Source: Alistipes sp.
GTDB taxonomy: Bacteria > Bacteroidota > Bacteroidia > Bacteroidales > Rikenellaceae
DNA: 64,000 nt
Direction of reading: 5' to 3'
Assembly (NCBI GenBank): GCA_017629145.1
Contig: JAGBXR010000034.1
Span: 1-64,000 of the forward strand
Made by a program: the position numbers and the translations under genes. The notes below the pieces were generated by a model that was not told the DNA's origin, did no database searches, and was given only the letters and a program-made list of their open reading frames with translations. Positions 8,981 to 17,005 of the stretch are shown piece by piece (the first letter of the stretch is position 1; every line of letters begins with the position of its first letter).

Positions 8981-9030
8981 AGAGGGAGAATTATTGAGCT
9001 GTGTGCTTCATAATTCTCCCTCTTTTTTTT
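8981..9030 (+). terminator. Intrinsic terminator
   Basis: A 14-bp perfect stem (8981-8994 with 9010-9023) followed by eight T residues. It may also stop the convergent DUF3667 gene. Confidence 0.92.
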
Positions 9031-10294: not shown

Positions 10295-10930
10295 CTACAT
10301 CATATCTTCAACATTTCTCTTCTTCTTACCCTTGGCATCGCGCTTTGCCTGCTTCGCGGCCTGCTTGTCGAGGTATTTTGATGTTGGCTCTACGCCTGTA
10401 TTGATAATGAATGTATACTCGTTGTACGACTCATCAACACTCTTCACAGATTTGTAATCTATCGTACGTGATGATGTTCGACTGATGATATGCTGCTCCA
10501 TAGATAGCTCAATGCTGTAGTCTTCGTAGATGGCGTGCTGTATTACAACCTTACCTGAAGAGGTCTCGAAAAAGTTGTCGCAGTTGTGCATCATAAACGA
10601 AAGTAGCTTATGGTAGGTCTCGTCCTTGTAGAAAACAACATATATAGACGACACCTTATCCTCGACGCCCATCTGCACAGCGATAGAGTAATCGCCCGAC
10701 GCAGGACGTATATCATCTTCGGCATCAGCAAAAATTGCAAGGACGTTGAGCGCCACATTGAGTCCGTTAGTACGGGTCAAGCCCCACGTATTGGTGTAGT
10801 TATCATACTTGAAGTTGTTCTCCTTGAACTCCGCCTTGCTGAAATAGATATACTTCGAATAGGGAAGCTCCTGGGCCTTGGCTGCAATCACAGCACACAA
10901 CGCCAAACATAGAAATAGTACCTTTTTCAT
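10295..10930 (-). CDS. Secreted protein of unknown function
   Basis: A 211-residue protein with signal peptide MKKVLFLCLALCAVIAAKAQ. I do not recognise a family. Visible features are an aromatic, beta-rich middle (YIYFSKAEFKENNFKYDNYT, then SSIYVVFYKDETYHKLLSFM) and a very basic tail (KQAAKQAKRDAKGKKKRNVE) near the C-terminus. It starts 42 bp after the stop of the STAS gene on the same strand with no visible terminator between, so it may be the last gene of the partner-switching operon. A -7 element of its own is not evident. Confidence 0.7.
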   Translation of the reverse strand: MKKVLFLCLALCAVIAAKAQELPYSKYIYFSKAEFKENNFKYDNYTNTWGLTRTNGLNVALNVLAIFADAEDDIRPASGDYSIAVQMGVEDKVSSIYVVFYKDETYHKLLSFMMHNCDNFFETSSGKVVIQHAIYEDYSIELSMEQHIISRTSSRTIDYKSVKSVDESYNEYTFIINTGVEPTSKYLDKQAAKQAKRDAKGKKKRNVEDMM

Positions 10931-10972: not shown

Positions 10973-11272
10973 TTACTCGATATTAAGCAGGCGCGAAAAT
11001 CCCGTAAGATCAAACACCGACTGCACCTCCTTGTTGAGATTGCGGATTGTAAATTTACCGCCTACTGCAGCAAGCTGCTTATAGGTAGATAGTATCACAC
11101 GCAGTCCCGACGAACTAACATAATCCATCTTCTCACAATCGAATACGACAACTGCGCCCAAATCAATGAGTGGTTTTACAGTTTGCTCCAGCTCGGGAGA
11201 TGTTACCGTATCGAGGCGACCCGCGATGTGGAGTATCGTAGTGCCCCCCTCTTCTAAAATTGTAATATCCAT
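10973..11272 (-). CDS. STAS-domain anti-sigma factor antagonist (STAS-1)
   Basis: A 99-residue single STAS domain, the size of SpoIIAA/RsbV. MDITILEEGGTTILHIAGRL (1-20) is the first strand-loop, and KMDYVSSSGLRVILSTYKQL carries the conserved phosphoacceptor region (S54/S55 before GLR). It ends SVFDLTGFSRLLNIE, typical of the family. In partner switching an RsbW-type kinase phosphorylates this serine and a PP2C phosphatase removes the phosphate. The upstream gene encodes both activities in one protein, only 6 bp away. The final partner (sigma factor or other target) is not in the window. Confidence 0.92.
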   Translation of the reverse strand: MDITILEEGGTTILHIAGRLDTVTSPELEQTVKPLIDLGAVVVFDCEKMDYVSSSGLRVILSTYKQLAAVGGKFTIRNLNKEVQSVFDLTGFSRLLNIE

Positions 11273-11278
11273 TATATA

Positions 11279-13666
11279 CTATTGTGTTAAATATTCCGAC
11301 TCAATTCCATCCTTCTTATCACCTATAACCTTGACCATTGTCAGGATATTCTCTCCATTCACACGATGATACTCCACCATCTGCATAATACGACGGATGA
11401 GGAATATACCCAAACCGCCAATAGGACGCTCCTCCAACGATAGCGTTATATCAGCCTCGGGCTGCTTCGTTGGGTCGAACTCCTTGCCCGAGTCAACAAT
11501 CTTGAAGACCAAGCGATTCTCGACCTGACGCACCGTAATAGTCAACGTATGCTCCTCGTCCTGTGGGTAGGCATACATAATGACGTTCGACACAGCCTCC
11601 TCCATAGCGAGATGGATATTGAACGAATCCTCTGCCGAGAGATTCAGCTCCTCGCTGATTTGCTCAAGGAAAGCTGCCATACGTGCTATCTCCTCGATGC
11701 GATTTGAGAGAACTATCTGTCGAGAATCCTCGTCATTGCCCAGTTTGCCTATGCTACAGCACAAAATTGTGATATCATCGTTCTGATCTGCACCCTTGGT
11801 GTGGATGGCAATATCCTCAAGAACCTCATCTATAATCTTGCGTGGTGTGTTCGACGACTTATCCTGCAAGAACTCCATAAGACGATGCACGCCATAGAGC
11901 TCCTTATCGACACTTTCGGCCTCGGTAACGCCATCGGTATACATAAACAACGTAGAGCCGTTCTCGATATGGCACGACTCACTCTCGTACTTAAAGCCCG
12001 ACCATATACCCATTGCTAAGTTAGGCTTGACGCAGAGCTGCTCTGCGCAACCGTTAGGCAGCAGAATAATCGGAGGATTGTGTCCTGCATTGCAATATCG
12101 CAGTTCACCACTCTTCAAATCCAGAATGCCGACAAAGGCTGTACAGAACATATTCGACTCGTTAGACTCCGAAAGTGCATCGTTAAGCGTTGCGACAATA
12201 CCCTCGGGACTCTCCACGTTATAGGCAATAGTTCTAAACAGGCGACACGTAACAGCCATAACCAATGATGCAGGAACACCCTTACCCGACACATCACCCA
12301 CGATAAAATGGAGCTTTTCGTCGTCGATAAAGAAGTCGTACAAGTCGCCACCGACCTCTCGCGCTGGGCGCAGCTTGGAGTAGAGGTCGATATCATCGCG
12401 CTCGGGGAACGGAGGGAAAACCTTGGGCACCATACCCATCTGTATAGCGCGAGCAATACGCAATTCACTCTCGATACGCTCCTTGTTTGCAGCCGTAAGC
12501 TGCAGCTCATCAACATATTTGAGCAATGACTGTTGCATATTTGCAAACGAATCGCGCAGCGTGCGCACCTCGTCGCGTCCCGAGACTGTAGGCAGCTTGG
12601 CCAGCAGGTTACCCTCGGCAATTTCGGTTGCTACGCCAGCGATCTTAATCAGAGGTCGCGTCATTCGACGTATGGTCAAGAAGCAGATAATGGCGACAAG
12701 CAGCAAGCATATGAAACCTGCTATATAGGAGTACTTGCGTACGCTCTCCACACCAGCAAAGATATCGCTATGCAGACAAGCTACTGCAACCGACCACCCC
12801 GTAGCCTCGATAGGAGCGTAGAGTAGATAGAACTTCTCGCCCTGACGCTCGAACTCACCGTTACCACACTCGCCACTAATCATTCGATATGCCGTCTCAA
12901 CCATCTGATGGTCACCCTGCGAGTAGGCCACATCGAACATCGTCTTGTTGAGGATATAGTCGTGGTTATAGTGTACGAGATATGCTCCCAAACGGCCAAT
13001 CATCAGATTGTAGGCATTGGGATATGGCTTGATGCTGTTCACCATCTTGGCAAACCACTCGAGCGAAAGGTCGGCAGTAAAGATTGCTATAATCTGACCA
13101 TCGTTGTTGTATATCGGATAGGAGTAGGTGGTCATAATGATATTGCCACCACCCTCGTCGAAATATGGCTCACTCCAGTGTGGTGCATTGAGCTGCATTG
13201 GGAGTCTGTACCAATCCATCAGGTGGTAGTTATACGACTCTGTACCAAGCTGCTTGCTGCGAATAGCATCTCCGTCGCGATAGGAATAGGGCGAGTAGAA
13301 CCTGCCCATCTCTTCGTAGTAGTATGGCTCAAAGGCTATGGCCGAGCCCGAGATGAAATCGTTGCTCTGGATGATATGCTCGGTGATTGTATATAGCTTC
13401 TCGGGATTGTTCAGACTCTCGACTACCTGCCACGACAAGTTATTTAGAGTGATTTCTACCGAATGTAGTACGCTGTTGATGCGAAGAATAGTATTATCAA
13501 GTGCAGACTGTGCACGCTCGATAGACTCGTTCTGAACATATCGGCGCGCCGAGCGTGAGTTGCCTACGATGGTCGCTGTGAAGAGTGCCGACACCAGCAC
13601 AAGAATTACCAAGCTCAAACGAAGAGGGAATGAGCGAATAAGTAAATTAGCTAATTTAACCACCAT
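11279..13666 (-). CDS. dCache-HAMP-SpoIIE phosphatase-RsbW-like kinase fusion (partner-switching sensor)
   Basis: A 795-residue membrane protein. TM1 (about 14-35) and TM2 (about 313-335) flank an extracytoplasmic sensor of the double-Cache type (HWSEPYFDEGGGNIIMTTYS, then ATGWSVAVACLHSDIF). A HAMP domain (about 336-390) starts RRMTRPLIKIAGVATEIAEG. The PP2C/SpoIIE phosphatase (about 430-630) shows REVGGDLYDFF, VGDVSGKGVPASL, CNAGHNPPIIL and MYTDGVTEAES with metal-binding Asp residues. The C-terminal HATPase (about 660-790) shows the N-box LAMEEAVSNVIMYAY, G1-like DSGKEFDP and G2-like GGLGIFLIRR. It therefore carries both the phosphatase and the kinase for STAS partners, under a periplasmic ligand sensor. 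Neighbours are a STAS gene on each side of the operon and an ABC transporter. Confidence 0.92.
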   Translation of the reverse strand: MVVKLANLLIRSFPLRLSLVILVLVSALFTATIVGNSRSARRYVQNESIERAQSALDNTILRINSVLHSVEITLNNLSWQVVESLNNPEKLYTITEHIIQSNDFISGSAIAFEPYYYEEMGRFYSPYSYRDGDAIRSKQLGTESYNYHLMDWYRLPMQLNAPHWSEPYFDEGGGNIIMTTYSYPIYNNDGQIIAIFTADLSLEWFAKMVNSIKPYPNAYNLMIGRLGAYLVHYNHDYILNKTMFDVAYSQGDHQMVETAYRMISGECGNGEFERQGEKFYLLYAPIEATGWSVAVACLHSDIFAGVESVRKYSYIAGFICLLLVAIICFLTIRRMTRPLIKIAGVATEIAEGNLLAKLPTVSGRDEVRTLRDSFANMQQSLLKYVDELQLTAANKERIESELRIARAIQMGMVPKVFPPFPERDDIDLYSKLRPAREVGGDLYDFFIDDEKLHFIVGDVSGKGVPASLVMAVTCRLFRTIAYNVESPEGIVATLNDALSESNESNMFCTAFVGILDLKSGELRYCNAGHNPPIILLPNGCAEQLCVKPNLAMGIWSGFKYESESCHIENGSTLFMYTDGVTEAESVDKELYGVHRLMEFLQDKSSNTPRKIIDEVLEDIAIHTKGADQNDDITILCCSIGKLGNDEDSRQIVLSNRIEEIARMAAFLEQISEELNLSAEDSFNIHLAMEEAVSNVIMYAYPQDEEHTLTITVRQVENRLVFKIVDSGKEFDPTKQPEADITLSLEERPIGGLGIFLIRRIMQMVEYHRVNGENILTMVKVIGDKKDGIESEYLTQ

Positions 13667-13693
13667 AACATCAGACGTTTATATTTTATACTC

Positions 13694-14749
13694 TCACTGC
13701 AGTCGAGCCTTACTTAATTCCATATGCAAGATATGCATACTACCCTCCACTCGCTCCTCGAGCACATCGCACAATCCGCGCAGAATACTCAGACTCAAAT
13801 CGTCGCGACACGTGCTCTCATCGGCATACAGCACACCGGCCTCATCGGTTACGATATCGAGCATCATACGCATATCATCATTCATCTTGGCAAGTTGCAG
13901 ACGCGCACCACCCTCGAGTGGCACAAGGTTAAGCGACTCCTCAACGACAAGTTGCACATAACGTGACGCCTTAGCATTCAGACCATAGCGAGAGCAGAAC
14001 TGCTCAATGCGTGAGTTGAGCTCAGGACGGTCGAATTGCACAGACTCGATTGTGTAGTGTAAGTCACGCATATAGCTTAGCAATCGTCTTGTAGCCTCCT
14101 GGCGAGGTGATGTAAGTACCTCATCAACAGAGCCATCCTCGCAGATGTAACCCTCATCAAGAATGGCGATCCTATCAGCAAGCTCTGATGCCGCCTGTAT
14201 GTCGTGGGTGCTAATTACTAAGGTTATCTCACTCTTCAGCTTACGCAAAACATCCATAACCTCACCTCTTGAGATTGGATCGAGTGACGATAGCGGCTCG
14301 TCAATAAGTAGTATCTGTGGCTTCATCACCAATGCTCGTGCTATAGCAACACGCTGCTGCTGACCTGCAGAGAGCTCGTGCGGAAAGAGGTGGCTCTTGT
14401 GTGCAAGACCGATAGAGTCAAGTTGTGCCATAGCTATACGCTCTGCCTCGGCTGTCGACATACCTAAGACCTGCTTAGGTGCCAATGTGAGGTTGTGGAG
14501 CACAGTGAGAAAGGGAAATAGGTTGAACTGCTGAAATATCATACCAATACGCGGTCTCTCGCCCCCAGAGAATACTATCTCTCCGCTGTCGAGTTGCTCT
14601 AATCCAGCAAGGCAGCGTAGCAGCGTACTCTTGCCACAGCCGATAGAGCCAAACAGACATACCGACTCTCCCTCTACGAGTTTCAGCGACAAATCATTCA
14701 AAACCTGACAGCCATCGAACGACTTATATACGTGTTTAAGCTCAATCAT
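13694..14749 (-). CDS. Amino-acid-type ABC transporter ATPase with a C-terminal degenerate RsbW-like domain
   Basis: A 351-residue protein. Residues 1-230 are a complete polar amino acid ABC ATPase: Walker A GSIGCGKST (34-42), Q-loop FQQFNLFPF, signature LSAGQ (126-130), Walker B ILLIDE (146-151), H-loop H182. About 120 extra residues follow. They align by eye with the anti-sigma kinase domain of the neighbouring sensor: FCSRYGLNAKASRYVQLVVE then ESLNL keeps ExxxN (E270, N274), D302-E-A-G resembles a worn G1 box, and the G2 glycines are replaced (DDLSLSILRGLCDVLEER). It thus looks like an inactive or altered HATPase fused to a transporter ATPase. Usual family length is about 240. It overlaps the permease by 8 bp. 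Confidence 0.9.
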   Translation of the reverse strand: MIELKHVYKSFDGCQVLNDLSLKLVEGESVCLFGSIGCGKSTLLRCLAGLEQLDSGEIVFSGGERPRIGMIFQQFNLFPFLTVLHNLTLAPKQVLGMSTAEAERIAMAQLDSIGLAHKSHLFPHELSAGQQQRVAIARALVMKPQILLIDEPLSSLDPISRGEVMDVLRKLKSEITLVISTHDIQAASELADRIAILDEGYICEDGSVDEVLTSPRQEATRRLLSYMRDLHYTIESVQFDRPELNSRIEQFCSRYGLNAKASRYVQLVVEESLNLVPLEGGARLQLAKMNDDMRMMLDIVTDEAGVLYADESTCRDDLSLSILRGLCDVLEERVEGSMHILHMELSKARLQ

Positions 14750-15506
14750 ACTTGAATAATTTTGTAGTTATAACCCTTACCCCTCGAATAATCGACTTTG
14801 CCATTATCAGATAGAATAGTGATGCTACCAACAGTGGCGCAAGCATATCGGAGTATATGTTTTGGACATCAAACACAGCCCTAATCAAGTCAGTCTGAGC
14901 GATATAACCTGCATACGATGTAATACGGAGTTGTATCTTTACCTGGTCTGTGAGCGTGGGTATCATCATTTTTGCAGCCTGTGGTAATACTATATATCGG
15001 TAGCATTGGCGAGTGGTCATACCCAATGCTCGTCCTGCCTCGATTTGTCCCTTGCCGACCTTGTTAATATTACGTGTAAAAATGCCCTCAATAGCTCCTG
15101 AGGTGTATAATCCTGCGGCTATAATTGTTACGATAATACCATTGACCTTGCCGGCGAAGATGACATAATAGAACAGCATCATCAAAGCTACTGACGGTAT
15201 ATCGCGTATCGTGGTAACAAACCAATGCATTGGTTTGTAAAACCATTGACACTTGTTGGTGATAGCAAGATATGTCAACAGAGATGAGACGAGGAGGGAT
15301 TCAATTATAGCAAAGAAGAATATTATGACCGTTGTCTTCAAACCACCCAAAATCACGCACCACATATCTCGGGATAGCAGAATCGACCAAAAACTGCTTG
15401 ACTCAGCAGCATCTGCCGCCATACAATACTCACAAGAGCATAACATCATAAGCAATACTAAAAATAGTATGCTTGGTCTGCGATATCTCTTGGCTATATA
15501 ACTCAT
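14742..15506 (-). CDS. Amino-acid-type ABC transporter permease (HisM/GlnP-like)
   Basis: A 254-residue protein with about six membrane segments. It starts with a hydrophobic segment (RPSILFLVLLMMLCSCEYCM), then a short soluble stretch, then the permease core starting LGGLKTTVIIFFFAIIESLL. The EAA loop that docks the ATPase is clear: EAGRALGMTTRQCYRYIVLP. The conserved region RDIPSVALMMLFYYVIF corresponds to RGTPLLVQLFxxYxG of polar amino acid permeases. No substrate-binding protein gene accompanies it in this operon, which is unusual. It lies between a STAS gene (77 bp upstream) and the ATPase (8 bp overlap). Confidence 0.9.
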   Translation of the reverse strand: MSYIAKRYRRPSILFLVLLMMLCSCEYCMAADAAESSSFWSILLSRDMWCVILGGLKTTVIIFFFAIIESLLVSSLLTYLAITNKCQWFYKPMHWFVTTIRDIPSVALMMLFYYVIFAGKVNGIIVTIIAAGLYTSGAIEGIFTRNINKVGKGQIEAGRALGMTTRQCYRYIVLPQAAKMMIPTLTDQVKIQLRITSYAGYIAQTDLIRAVFDVQNIYSDMLAPLLVASLFYLIMAKSIIRGVRVITTKLFKYD

Positions 15507-15583
15507 CGTGTGATTATTAGAAAAGAATATACACAGACCCCGTTTAACCAGAGTCCGTGCAATCTTCTAAAGTGTAGCAAATG

Positions 15584-15874
15584 TTACTCGATATTGAAAA
15601 TCTGACTAAATCCAGACATATCAAACACACTCTTAACGAGTGGTTCAAGATTGCGAATAATCAACTTACCGCCCTTTGCTGTGATATTTTTGTTAAACGA
15701 CAAGAAAATACGCAATCCAGAAGAGCAGATATAGTTCATACCTGCACAATCAATTACTACTATATCTCCAAGGTTTACCTCCAGTCTGTTGATATCATCC
15801 TCCAAAGCCTTAAGGTGAAGCGAATCCATTGGATAGTTTGCGTATATGTTATGTGTTGTAAAATTTTCCGCCAT
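15584..15874 (-). CDS. STAS-domain anti-sigma factor antagonist (STAS-2)
   Basis: A 96-residue STAS domain, first gene of the operon. DIVVIDCAGMNYICSSGLRI carries the SSGLR phosphoacceptor, and the end SVFDMSGFSQIFNIE nearly copies STAS-1 (SVFDLTGFSRLLNIE), so the two are paralogues. I chose the ATG at 15874. The in-frame TTG further upstream lies in the promoter. Having two STAS proteins for one kinase/phosphatase suggests two outputs or a competition, which is inference. Confidence 0.9.
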   Translation of the reverse strand: MAENFTTHNIYANYPMDSLHLKALEDDINRLEVNLGDIVVIDCAGMNYICSSGLRIFLSFNKNITAKGGKLIIRNLEPLVKSVFDMSGFSQIFNIE

Positions 15875-15901
15875 AATTACATTTATATATCTTAACTCGT
15901 A

Positions 15902-15934
15902 CAAAGGTAGTAAAAAAAATCAAAGTGAAACAAA
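15902..15934 (-). promoter_or_regulatory. Promoter of the STAS/ABC transporter operon
   Basis: Minus-strand TACCTTTG (15909-15902) with TTTG (15934-15931) 21 bp upstream matches the Bacteroidetes consensus at both elements. The leader to the ATG at 15874 is about 24 bases. Confidence 0.75.
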
Positions 15935-16084
15935 ATTTTTATTATTTTAACATTAAATTTTGTCGAGCTTATCCGTAGGATAGTCCCGAAACAGACAAAT
16001 AATTGCGACATATTCAACAATCTATTGCAGCATCCTGTTTTTAATTTTTGCATCTCTGGTGCAGATATTGCATTGTGGCGATTT

Positions 16085-17005
16085 ATGAAGAATCGAGGAA
16101 CCATCAATGCACATATCGCACTCATCGCCTGCAACGTCGTATGGGCGTGCGACTATCCATTTTACAACCTGCTACTCGGAAAATATATCGAGCCGTTAGC
16201 AATGGTCACAGCCTCGCTTATAGCAGCTGCTGCACTGTCGTGGATACCTGCTATATGGCAACCCCGAGAGCGCATCGAAAAAAGCGACTGGGCGATGATA
16301 ATCTTTGCTGCGATGCTGATGGGTGTGACACGCAAAATGATGATGATGTTTGGCCTATCACGCACCTCGCCTATCGATGGTTCGATAATAGCCACATTAG
16401 TACCTATACTCGTACTTATCGTTTCGTTAATTGCGCGTGTCGACAAGCTAACAATTCGCAAGGCGGTTGGTCTGGTAGTAGGTCTTACGGGTGCCATAGC
16501 CGTAATTATCACAAGCCACAGTCCGACACACCCAAAATCGGAACTTTGGGGCAACGTGATGATGATGTGCAGCGGTACGGTAACAGCTCTCTATATGGTA
16601 TTTTTCAGACGTCTGGTATCTAAATACCGCATAACGACCACACTTCGCGCCATATACACAATATCGGCGGTCGTTATGCTCCCGATAGGTATGGACTCGA
16701 TGATAGATATCGACTTTGCAGATATGAACGCCGAGCTATGGGCAGCTGCCGCGTTTGTACTTATCATACCGACATATCTGCCTAACCTCCTGCTCAACTA
16801 CTCGTTGCGCTACCTCCAACCTACTCTATCGAGCATCTACACCTACATCCAACCAGTGCTTGCCGTAGCGCTGTCGGTAGCTATGGGTCTCGACCGTCTG
16901 CACACCGACACGATATTCTTTGCCGTTGTGCTATTTGTTGGCGTGTGGTTGGTCATCACATCCTACAAAGAGAGCCCTCAACAACCGCAACCTCTGAAAA
17001 ATTAA
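16085..17005 (+). CDS. EamA/DMT-family transporter
   Basis: A 306-residue protein with ten hydrophobic segments in two EamA repeats: NAHIALIACNVVWACDYPFY opens repeat 1, and WGNVMMMCSGTVTALYMVFF opens repeat 2. YTYIQPVLAVALSVAMGLDR is the conserved region near the end. The family exports or imports small metabolites such as amino acids or nucleotides. The substrate is not readable. I prefer the ATG at 16085 because a -7-like box (AATTTTTG, 16043-16050) lies inside the longer in-frame extension that starts at 16025. It is transcribed divergently from the STAS operon. Confidence 0.85.
   Translation: MKNRGTINAHIALIACNVVWACDYPFYNLLLGKYIEPLAMVTASLIAAAALSWIPAIWQPRERIEKSDWAMIIFAAMLMGVTRKMMMMFGLSRTSPIDGSIIATLVPILVLIVSLIARVDKLTIRKAVGLVVGLTGAIAVIITSHSPTHPKSELWGNVMMMCSGTVTALYMVFFRRLVSKYRITTTLRAIYTISAVVMLPIGMDSMIDIDFADMNAELWAAAAFVLIIPTYLPNLLLNYSLRYLQPTLSSIYTYIQPVLAVALSVAMGLDRLHTDTIFFAVVLFVGVWLVITSYKESPQQPQPLKN

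Follow-up and report, generated by a model that had tools for sequence, protein, structure and literature searches.

Our results suggest, with a probability that we put at roughly 0.64, that an operon of Alistipes sp. encodes an ATP-binding cassette (ABC) importer whose own motor is a target of a partner switch. The operon lies on the minus strand of a stretch of 64,000 nucleotides (assembly GCA_017629145.1, contig JAGBXR010000034.1, positions 1 to 64,000), hereafter the window. Its five genes encode STAS-2, a permease, an ATPase, a sensor and STAS-1, with gaps of 77, -8, 27 and 6 bp between them. A preliminary description of this DNA had reported the same order, gaps and domains; we located all five genes, Pfam confirmed their domains, and a complete partner-switch set is indeed present within an importer operon. 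That description overlooked a C-terminal domain of the ATPase with the SpoIIAB/RsbW fold, which is the likely point of contact between the switch and the transporter. The presence of an RsbW-like domain on the ATPase suggests that the transporter is a target of the switch and not merely the source of its signal. The features are listed here in the order of transcription.

15902..15934, minus strand: promoter-like sequence of the Bacteroidota type upstream of STAS-2, fitting TTTG-N-TAnnTTTG.
15584..15874, minus strand: STAS-2, 96 amino acids (Pfam STAS, 1.3e-12), with CSSGLR and Ser at the phospho-acceptor position.
15561-15530, minus strand: terminator-like hairpin and then a T-rich run, separating STAS-2 from the permease.
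14742..15506, minus strand: permease, 254 amino acids (Pfam BPD_transp_1, 9e-11).
13694..14749, minus strand: ABC ATPase, 351 amino acids (Pfam ABC_tran, 2.9e-31), with a nucleotide-binding domain (NBD) at about residues 1-220.
13697..14086, minus strand: PSK, our name for the C-terminal domain of the ATPase, which is pseudokinase-like and of the SpoIIAB/RsbW fold (hhalign, AlphaFold2, Foldseek, motif loss).
11279..13666, minus strand: sensor, 795 amino acids, dCache-HAMP-SpoIIE phosphatase-RsbW kinase (Pfam; motifs of both enzymes present).
10973..11272, minus strand: STAS-1, 99 amino acids (Pfam STAS, 4.3e-20), with SSSGLR and Ser at the phospho-acceptor position.

The C-terminal region of the ATPase, about 130 amino acids long, is almost certainly a domain of the RsbW/SpoIIAB fold. 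Searching the PDB with the single domain sequence, and likewise with a profile of the 14 sequences identified as relatives by profile search, returned chance matches only, and a comparison of folds was therefore required. The 14 domain sequences aligned to six RsbW kinases at 97.0% in hhalign (E 1e-10), and an extended set of 59 sequences (58 used) aligned to 17 RsbW kinases at 98.3% (E 1.2e-13). The AlphaFold2 model of the window domain, built with the 59 rows, reached a mean predicted local distance difference test score (pLDDT) of 86. When this model was compared with solved structures using Foldseek, all 18 matches at E<=0.001 were anti-sigma kinase entries (SigF-anti-sigma, UsfX-RsfB, SpoIIAB and RsbV-RsbW), with TM values of 0.56-0.72 on the query. 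A model of the full ATPase (pLDDT 91, predicted TM 0.78) places the domain after the NBD. The domain profile also finds open frames of about 140 and about 800 amino acids, some of them overlapping SpoIIE matches, as is expected for kinases and sensor-kinase fusions.

The boxes that characterize the active kinases are missing from this domain. Across its 59-row alignment, neither the aligned N-box Asn, nor the aligned G1 Asp (mostly Ser), nor the GGLG box was found in any row (0/59 each). The 17 RsbW kinases of the fusion loci (loci encoding an ATPase fused to this domain) retain each of the three boxes in 16 cases by loose patterns, and stricter patterns recover the N-box in 12, G1 in 11 and GGLG in 16. 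Because all three elements are absent from every row, the domain looks like a pseudokinase and a plausible dock for STAS proteins; it shares the fold of the SpoIIAB/RsbW kinases without their catalytic and ATP-binding boxes, and we do not classify it as a kinase. Traces of the motifs do occur out of register: an ExxxN string displaced by one residue in the window domain (1/59) and a D-x-G in 2 to 4 of the 59 rows by pattern. Two congeneric genomes outside this alignment, G907 and G896, present a D-x-G near the G1 position (by eye). Given the ExxxN of the window and the D-x-G of the congeners, the domain may still bind nucleotide. Overall, it probably serves as a receptor for STAS.

Genes of partner switching recur beside ATPases of this kind. 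Of the 118 distinct fusion loci, 22 encode STAS, RsbW or SpoIIE in the gene run of the ATPase, as do 15 of the 74 with flanks of 5 kb or more on each side. None was found in the runs of 20 ABC ATPases that lack the domain and served as controls, hand-picked from 11 fusion-bearing genomes (Fisher p 0.02 for 15/74 against 0/20); one control has a STAS gene 7.5 kb away. The arrangements vary: Chlorobium and a Geobacteraceae metagenome-assembled genome (MAG) have the order sensor, binding protein-permease, ATPase, STAS, RsbW; an Ignavibacteriales MAG has RsbW first and STAS last; and locus L188 has sensor, RsbW and STAS first. The sensor-kinase fusion directly follows the ATPase in locus L124 and in the window, and related combinations are also present in other Bacteroidales. 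On a tree of the ATPases (FastTree; 87 rows whose state is known; several of the branches are long), the state of linkage changes at least 13 times, which indicates that linkage does not stem from one founder. The single SpoIIE match in the window's assembly is the sensor of the operon.

The gene order is not unique to one strain, since the whole operon is found in two congeners, G907 (locus L247) and G896 (locus L254). Both encode a STAS protein, the permease, the ATPase with its domain, a protein of 312 amino acids, the sensor fusion and a second STAS protein, in the order of the window. Identity to the window in these two genomes is 82-84% for STAS-2, 71-81% for STAS-1, 65-72% for the NBD and 56-64% for the C-terminal domain. 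The 312-residue protein of G907 is an NMT1/THI5-like binding protein (PF09084, 4e-31) and that of G896 is its evident homologue by length and sequence start; the permease of G896 additionally retains part of a family-3 binding domain. No binding-protein gene is present between the ATPase and the sensor of the window, whose permease begins with a lipoprotein-like signal sequence (by eye) and has no binding-protein domain. SBP_bac_3, which is present beside most other fusion ATPases, gave no match in the window's genome (76% complete; controls positive in 12/14), and the assembly yielded no homologue of the G907 binding protein (76% complete; a search without positive control). Across the three genomes the constant core is therefore STAS-permease-ATPase-sensor-STAS, and it is the binding protein that changes.

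This variation bears on the substrate. The ATPase and permease belong to the polar amino acid ABC importer family, with NCBIfam scores below the equivalog cut-offs. The Pfam ABC_tran match ends at residue 153 of the ATPase, and the nearest amino-acid-type NCBIfam models end at residues 225-227. The motifs that we take to be Walker A, Walker B, the signature and the H-switch were all located in the NBD. Because the binding protein varies while the operon core is constant, the substrate is not known to be an amino acid, and the name 'amino-acid' is a label of the subunit family. The amino-acid-type transporter of the preliminary description holds for the subunits and is weaker as regards the substrate: the operon has no binding-protein gene, that of G907 is of the NMT1/THI5 type, and the dCache domain lacks (by eye) the Arg of the amino-acid motif. 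A comparison of the ATPase with plasmid proteins returned many ABC ATPases, none above 60% identity among the matches listed, and was uninformative.

The fusion of the domain to an ABC ATPase is scattered over several phyla. In a family sample of 101 genomes, full-length matches were present, among the matches listed, only in the window's genome and in G051. Within the genus, the fusion is carried by 3 of 180 genomes, namely that of the window, G907 and G896; weak matches were also returned for two others, and G925, the one of these that was inspected, encodes a different protein. The domain profile matched 39 of the 393 genomes of an order sample, and locus inspection identified the fusion in 21 of them; the 18 remaining matches lay outside this inspection and their open frames are mostly kinases or sensor fusions. 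In a phylum sample, 43 of 394 genomes matched, mainly from one genus whose contigs reappear as Chlorobiaceae in our scan of public genomes. The scan, with 212 confirmed stretches, yielded 80 loci, and we read the fusion in 78 of them. The carriers include Chlorobiaceae, Ignavibacteria, Bacteroidales, Sporomusa, Pelotomaculum, Syntrophomonas, Rhodocyclus purpureus DSM 168, Methylophilales, Geobacteraceae and Desulfobacteraceae; the fusion spans Bacteroidota including Chlorobiaceae, plus Bacillota, Pseudomonadota and Geobacteraceae. Some of the MAG labels are doubtful: locus L208, labelled 'Alphaproteobacteria', is nearly identical to L213 of Bacteroidales and likely comes from a mislabelled or mis-binned MAG.

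Several individual loci present unusual architectures. In L120 (8698-11646), permease, binding domain, ATPase and RsbW-like domain form one chain of 983 amino acids. The domain profile also found a protein of 1407 amino acids that ends in SpoIIE and RsbW domains (L080, 6827-11047). The fusion ATPases of L119, L117 and L118 are accompanied by short permeases, with the binding protein separate or not seen. Finally, Rhodocyclus purpureus DSM 168 (L194) encodes two oppositely oriented fusion ATPases close to genes for SpoIIE, RsbW and STAS.

The other components of the switch appear intact in the window. Pfam assigns MCP-like_PDC_1/dCache_1, HAMP, SpoIIE (1.4e-52) and HATPase_c_2 (4e-26) domains to the sensor. 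Its phosphatase presents the motifs GGDLYDF, GDVSGKG, YTDGVTEA and DDITILC, to which we attribute metal binding, and its C-terminal kinase presents MEEAVSN, VDSGKEFD and IGGLGIFLI, which we take to be the N, G1 and G2 boxes. Both window STAS proteins contain S-x-G-L-R; across the 26 STAS proteins found in the window and in the public-scan loci, S-x-[GF]-[LI]-R is present in all and the strict form in 21. By sequence, the operon therefore has the SpoIIE phosphatase motifs, the RsbW kinase boxes and the STAS serine of a partner switch, and it lacks a sigma-factor target: Pfam detected no sigma factor in the five genes or in the two next to them.

We considered whether the dCache domain could be of the amino acid-binding type. 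According to the available part of PMC10104139, the published amino-acid motif of dCache domains includes an Arg (R126 of PctA) with a role in binding carboxylate. The window domain has a Met at the aligned place before W-Y, and the aligned Arg is likewise absent from six other sensors with the WY anchor at the usual place (all by eye); we rejected this candidate. The WY pattern matched out of register in L124 and gave no match in five sensors.

These observations are consistent with the following mechanism. Without ligand, the RsbW domain of the sensor would maintain STAS in its phosphorylated form, away from the ATPase. Ligand binding to the periplasmic dCache domain would activate the SpoIIE phosphatase, and dephosphorylated STAS would then dock on the pseudokinase domain of the ATPase, as SpoIIAA docks on SpoIIAB. 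The docked STAS would gate or assemble the ATPase dimer, and the external signal would in this way control transport activity post-translationally. We slightly favour docking that activates transport over docking that inhibits it, by analogy with MlaF, which requires bound MlaB in order to enter its complex.

A number of observations weigh against an importer motor under the control of STAS. The window operon has no binding-protein gene, which places the importer function of this copy in doubt. The window's C-terminal domain has no Pfam match and is 13-30% identical to the other 58 rows of its alignment. In favour of the kinase fold, seven of its 14 relatives match HATPase_c_2 (best E 1.1e-5), in a search at a permissive limit and with scores that, where looked at, fall below the Pfam cut-off. 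In as many as 96 of the 118 fusion loci the run contains no STAS, RsbW or SpoIIE gene, and the switch would have to work in trans there; the sole linked locus from a named group outside the wide-sense Bacteroidota is the Geobacteraceae MAG L214. The control set is mixed, since genes for a binding protein or a permease were detected in the runs of only 9 of the 20 ATPases. Finally, a co-occurrence at genome level supports the link to partner switching, with SpoIIE at E<=1e-45 in 21/21 fusion genomes of the order sample against 92/393 overall (Fisher 8e-15), but this cut was picked after viewing the list and was applied to related, non-independent genomes; at E<=0.001 the figures are 21/21 and 292/393 (p 0.0016).

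Some of these points would fit other explanations. Information might flow in the reverse direction, with the transporter as the sensing element: the pseudokinase domain would titrate STAS according to the transport cycle and the freed STAS would act on an unlinked target. MalK, which holds MalT, offers a model for such a scheme. Binding proteins of two kinds were not found in the 76% complete genome, which makes bulk transport doubtful while the signalling parts are kept; the presence of two STAS proteins would allow a second output; and the domain follows the NBD as do the regulatory domains of MalK and MetN, both listed as Foldseek relatives. We nevertheless consider this reading unlikely, given that a sensor with both phosphatase and kinase is already encoded in the operon, which renders a second input unnecessary, and that no sigma-factor domain is present among the genes of the run. 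The domain might instead be a scaffold or dimerisation module that descends from RsbW and has no present link to STAS, its neighbours being co-regulated for other reasons. The 96 unlinked loci favour such a module, yet the linkage is repeated in differing arrangements and absent from the controls, SpoIIE co-occurs in every fusion genome of the order sample, and the domain is kept in the congeners with 56-64% identity, next to an NBD with 65-72%; this possibility appears to us somewhat less likely still.

A transporter that itself phosphorylates STAS through a still active C-terminal kinase would account for the displaced ExxxN of the window and the D-x-G of the congeners, but since all 59 rows lack both the ATP-lid box GGLG and the N-box Asn at its aligned position, we regard it as very improbable. 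The window's genome (G000) is a draft of 49 contigs, and a chance neighbourhood or an assembly artefact might have been suspected; this explanation is already contradicted by the same order in two congeners and by the fusion in 78/80 public-scan loci, and we give it hardly any credence. The reading that we favour is an importer motor that STAS docking would control.

The layout of the operon may itself influence the dosage of its products. We take TTTG-N-TAnnTTTG to be the promoter consensus of Bacteroidota; the window contains seven matches against 0.8 expected by chance. The promoter region upstream of STAS-2 is kept in G907. In G896, where the contig reaches only about 70 bases beyond STAS-2 on its upstream side, there is no exact match to the whole pattern and only TATCTTTG is visible (by eye). 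The interval between STAS-2 and the permease has a folding z of -5.7 in the window and of -3.9 and -2.8 in the two congeners, and the stem of the hairpin is conserved in both. No double compensatory change occurs across the three genomes and a shuffle control does not favour compensation, so that support for the hairpin comes from conservation and folding energy. No RNA family reached its gathering score between positions 9000 and 18000 of the window. The preliminary description had one promoter reading all five genes; the promoter-like string is there, but the conserved hairpin after STAS-2 makes equal read-through doubtful. The hairpin may act as an attenuator, and STAS-2 may be produced in excess over the other products of the operon.

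A gene for a secreted-looking protein of 211 amino acids without Pfam match (10295-10930, minus strand) starts 42 bp after STAS-1. We rejected it as a sixth member, as it is found in 4/41 genus genomes (its own included) and lies apart from the operon in two of these; in G907 its homologue follows the operon and carries an in-frame stop. On the other side, an EamA-type transporter gene (16025-17005, plus strand) is divergent from the operon. A foreign origin by composition was also rejected, the GC content of the operon (0.42-0.49) falling within the spread of the window.

The preliminary description knew of no system that joins a transporter ATPase, a permease and a partner switch in one operon, and we likewise found no description of such an ABC importer-partner switch system in the literature searched, whose coverage mostly excludes subscription journals. 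The term ABC is absent from the main text, as available, of a review of STAS-only proteins (PMC8256260), and transport is not mentioned in the accessible part of PMC11418112. The closest precedent is MlaFEDB, in which the STAS protein MlaB binds the ABC ATPase MlaF and is proposed to control it, with a possible phosphosite at the interface (PMC7367683, in the sections available, as for the statements that follow). Its authors, who reported no further STAS-ABC pair among PDB entries, left open whether STAS proteins regulate ABC transporters more widely and whether they do so by phosphorylation (PMC7367683). In contrast to the window, MlaB contacts the NBD, the tail of MlaF is about 25 amino acids long and has no RsbW fold, and the permease is MlaE (PMC7367683). 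The window operon, whose permease is BPD_transp_1, does not belong to this system; with the MlaB model STAS-1 scores 17.6 bits against a cut-off of 90, and STAS-2 is not listed.

The likeness to other known systems is partial. Like SpoIIAB-SpoIIAA-SpoIIE and RsbW-RsbV-RsbU of Bacillus, the window operon combines a SpoIIE-type phosphatase, an RsbW-type kinase and STAS proteins with a conserved Ser, and its ATPase domain shares the SpoIIAB fold; unlike them, it has no sigma factor, carries a degenerate RsbW fold on an ABC ATPase and uses a dCache receptor as sensor. Rv1364c (PDB 3ke6) joins RsbU and RsbW domains in one chain, as the window sensor does, and is a weaker Foldseek match of the ATPase domain (E 0.011); no transporter is known to be involved there. 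MetN and MalK have an extra domain after the NBD, as the window ATPase does, and both are among the Foldseek matches of the full ATPase, but over long alignments the root-mean-square deviation is 9-12, so that their extra domains fail to superpose on that of the window. The ligand of MetN is methionine, and MalK has MalT or EIIA as its partner. The best solved relatives of the window NBD are ArtP, HisP and GlnQ, and the permease family is common to polar amino acid importers; these ATPases lack the C-terminal domain, with none extending beyond profile position 261/360 among the matches listed (60 of 484 PDB matches).

Taken more broadly, we see about an even chance that these loci represent a widespread, undescribed class of ABC importers with an RsbW-derived pseudokinase domain as STAS receptor, in which partner switching directly throttles nutrient uptake. 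In the lineage of the window, the binding protein would have undergone degradation, exchange and in the end loss, with the switch retained throughout, a course that may signify conversion of the importer to a pure signalling device. If this is true, partner switching, known mainly from the control of sigma factors, would gain a new type of output in the ABC importer, and ABC importers would gain a signal-controlled regulatory domain that has no Pfam name. It would also suggest a target for those STAS/RsbW/SpoIIE sets of Bacteroidota that have no adjacent sigma factor. With kinase, phosphatase, STAS and a receptor-like domain in one operon, the question of STAS regulation raised by the authors of the MlaFB study becomes testable.

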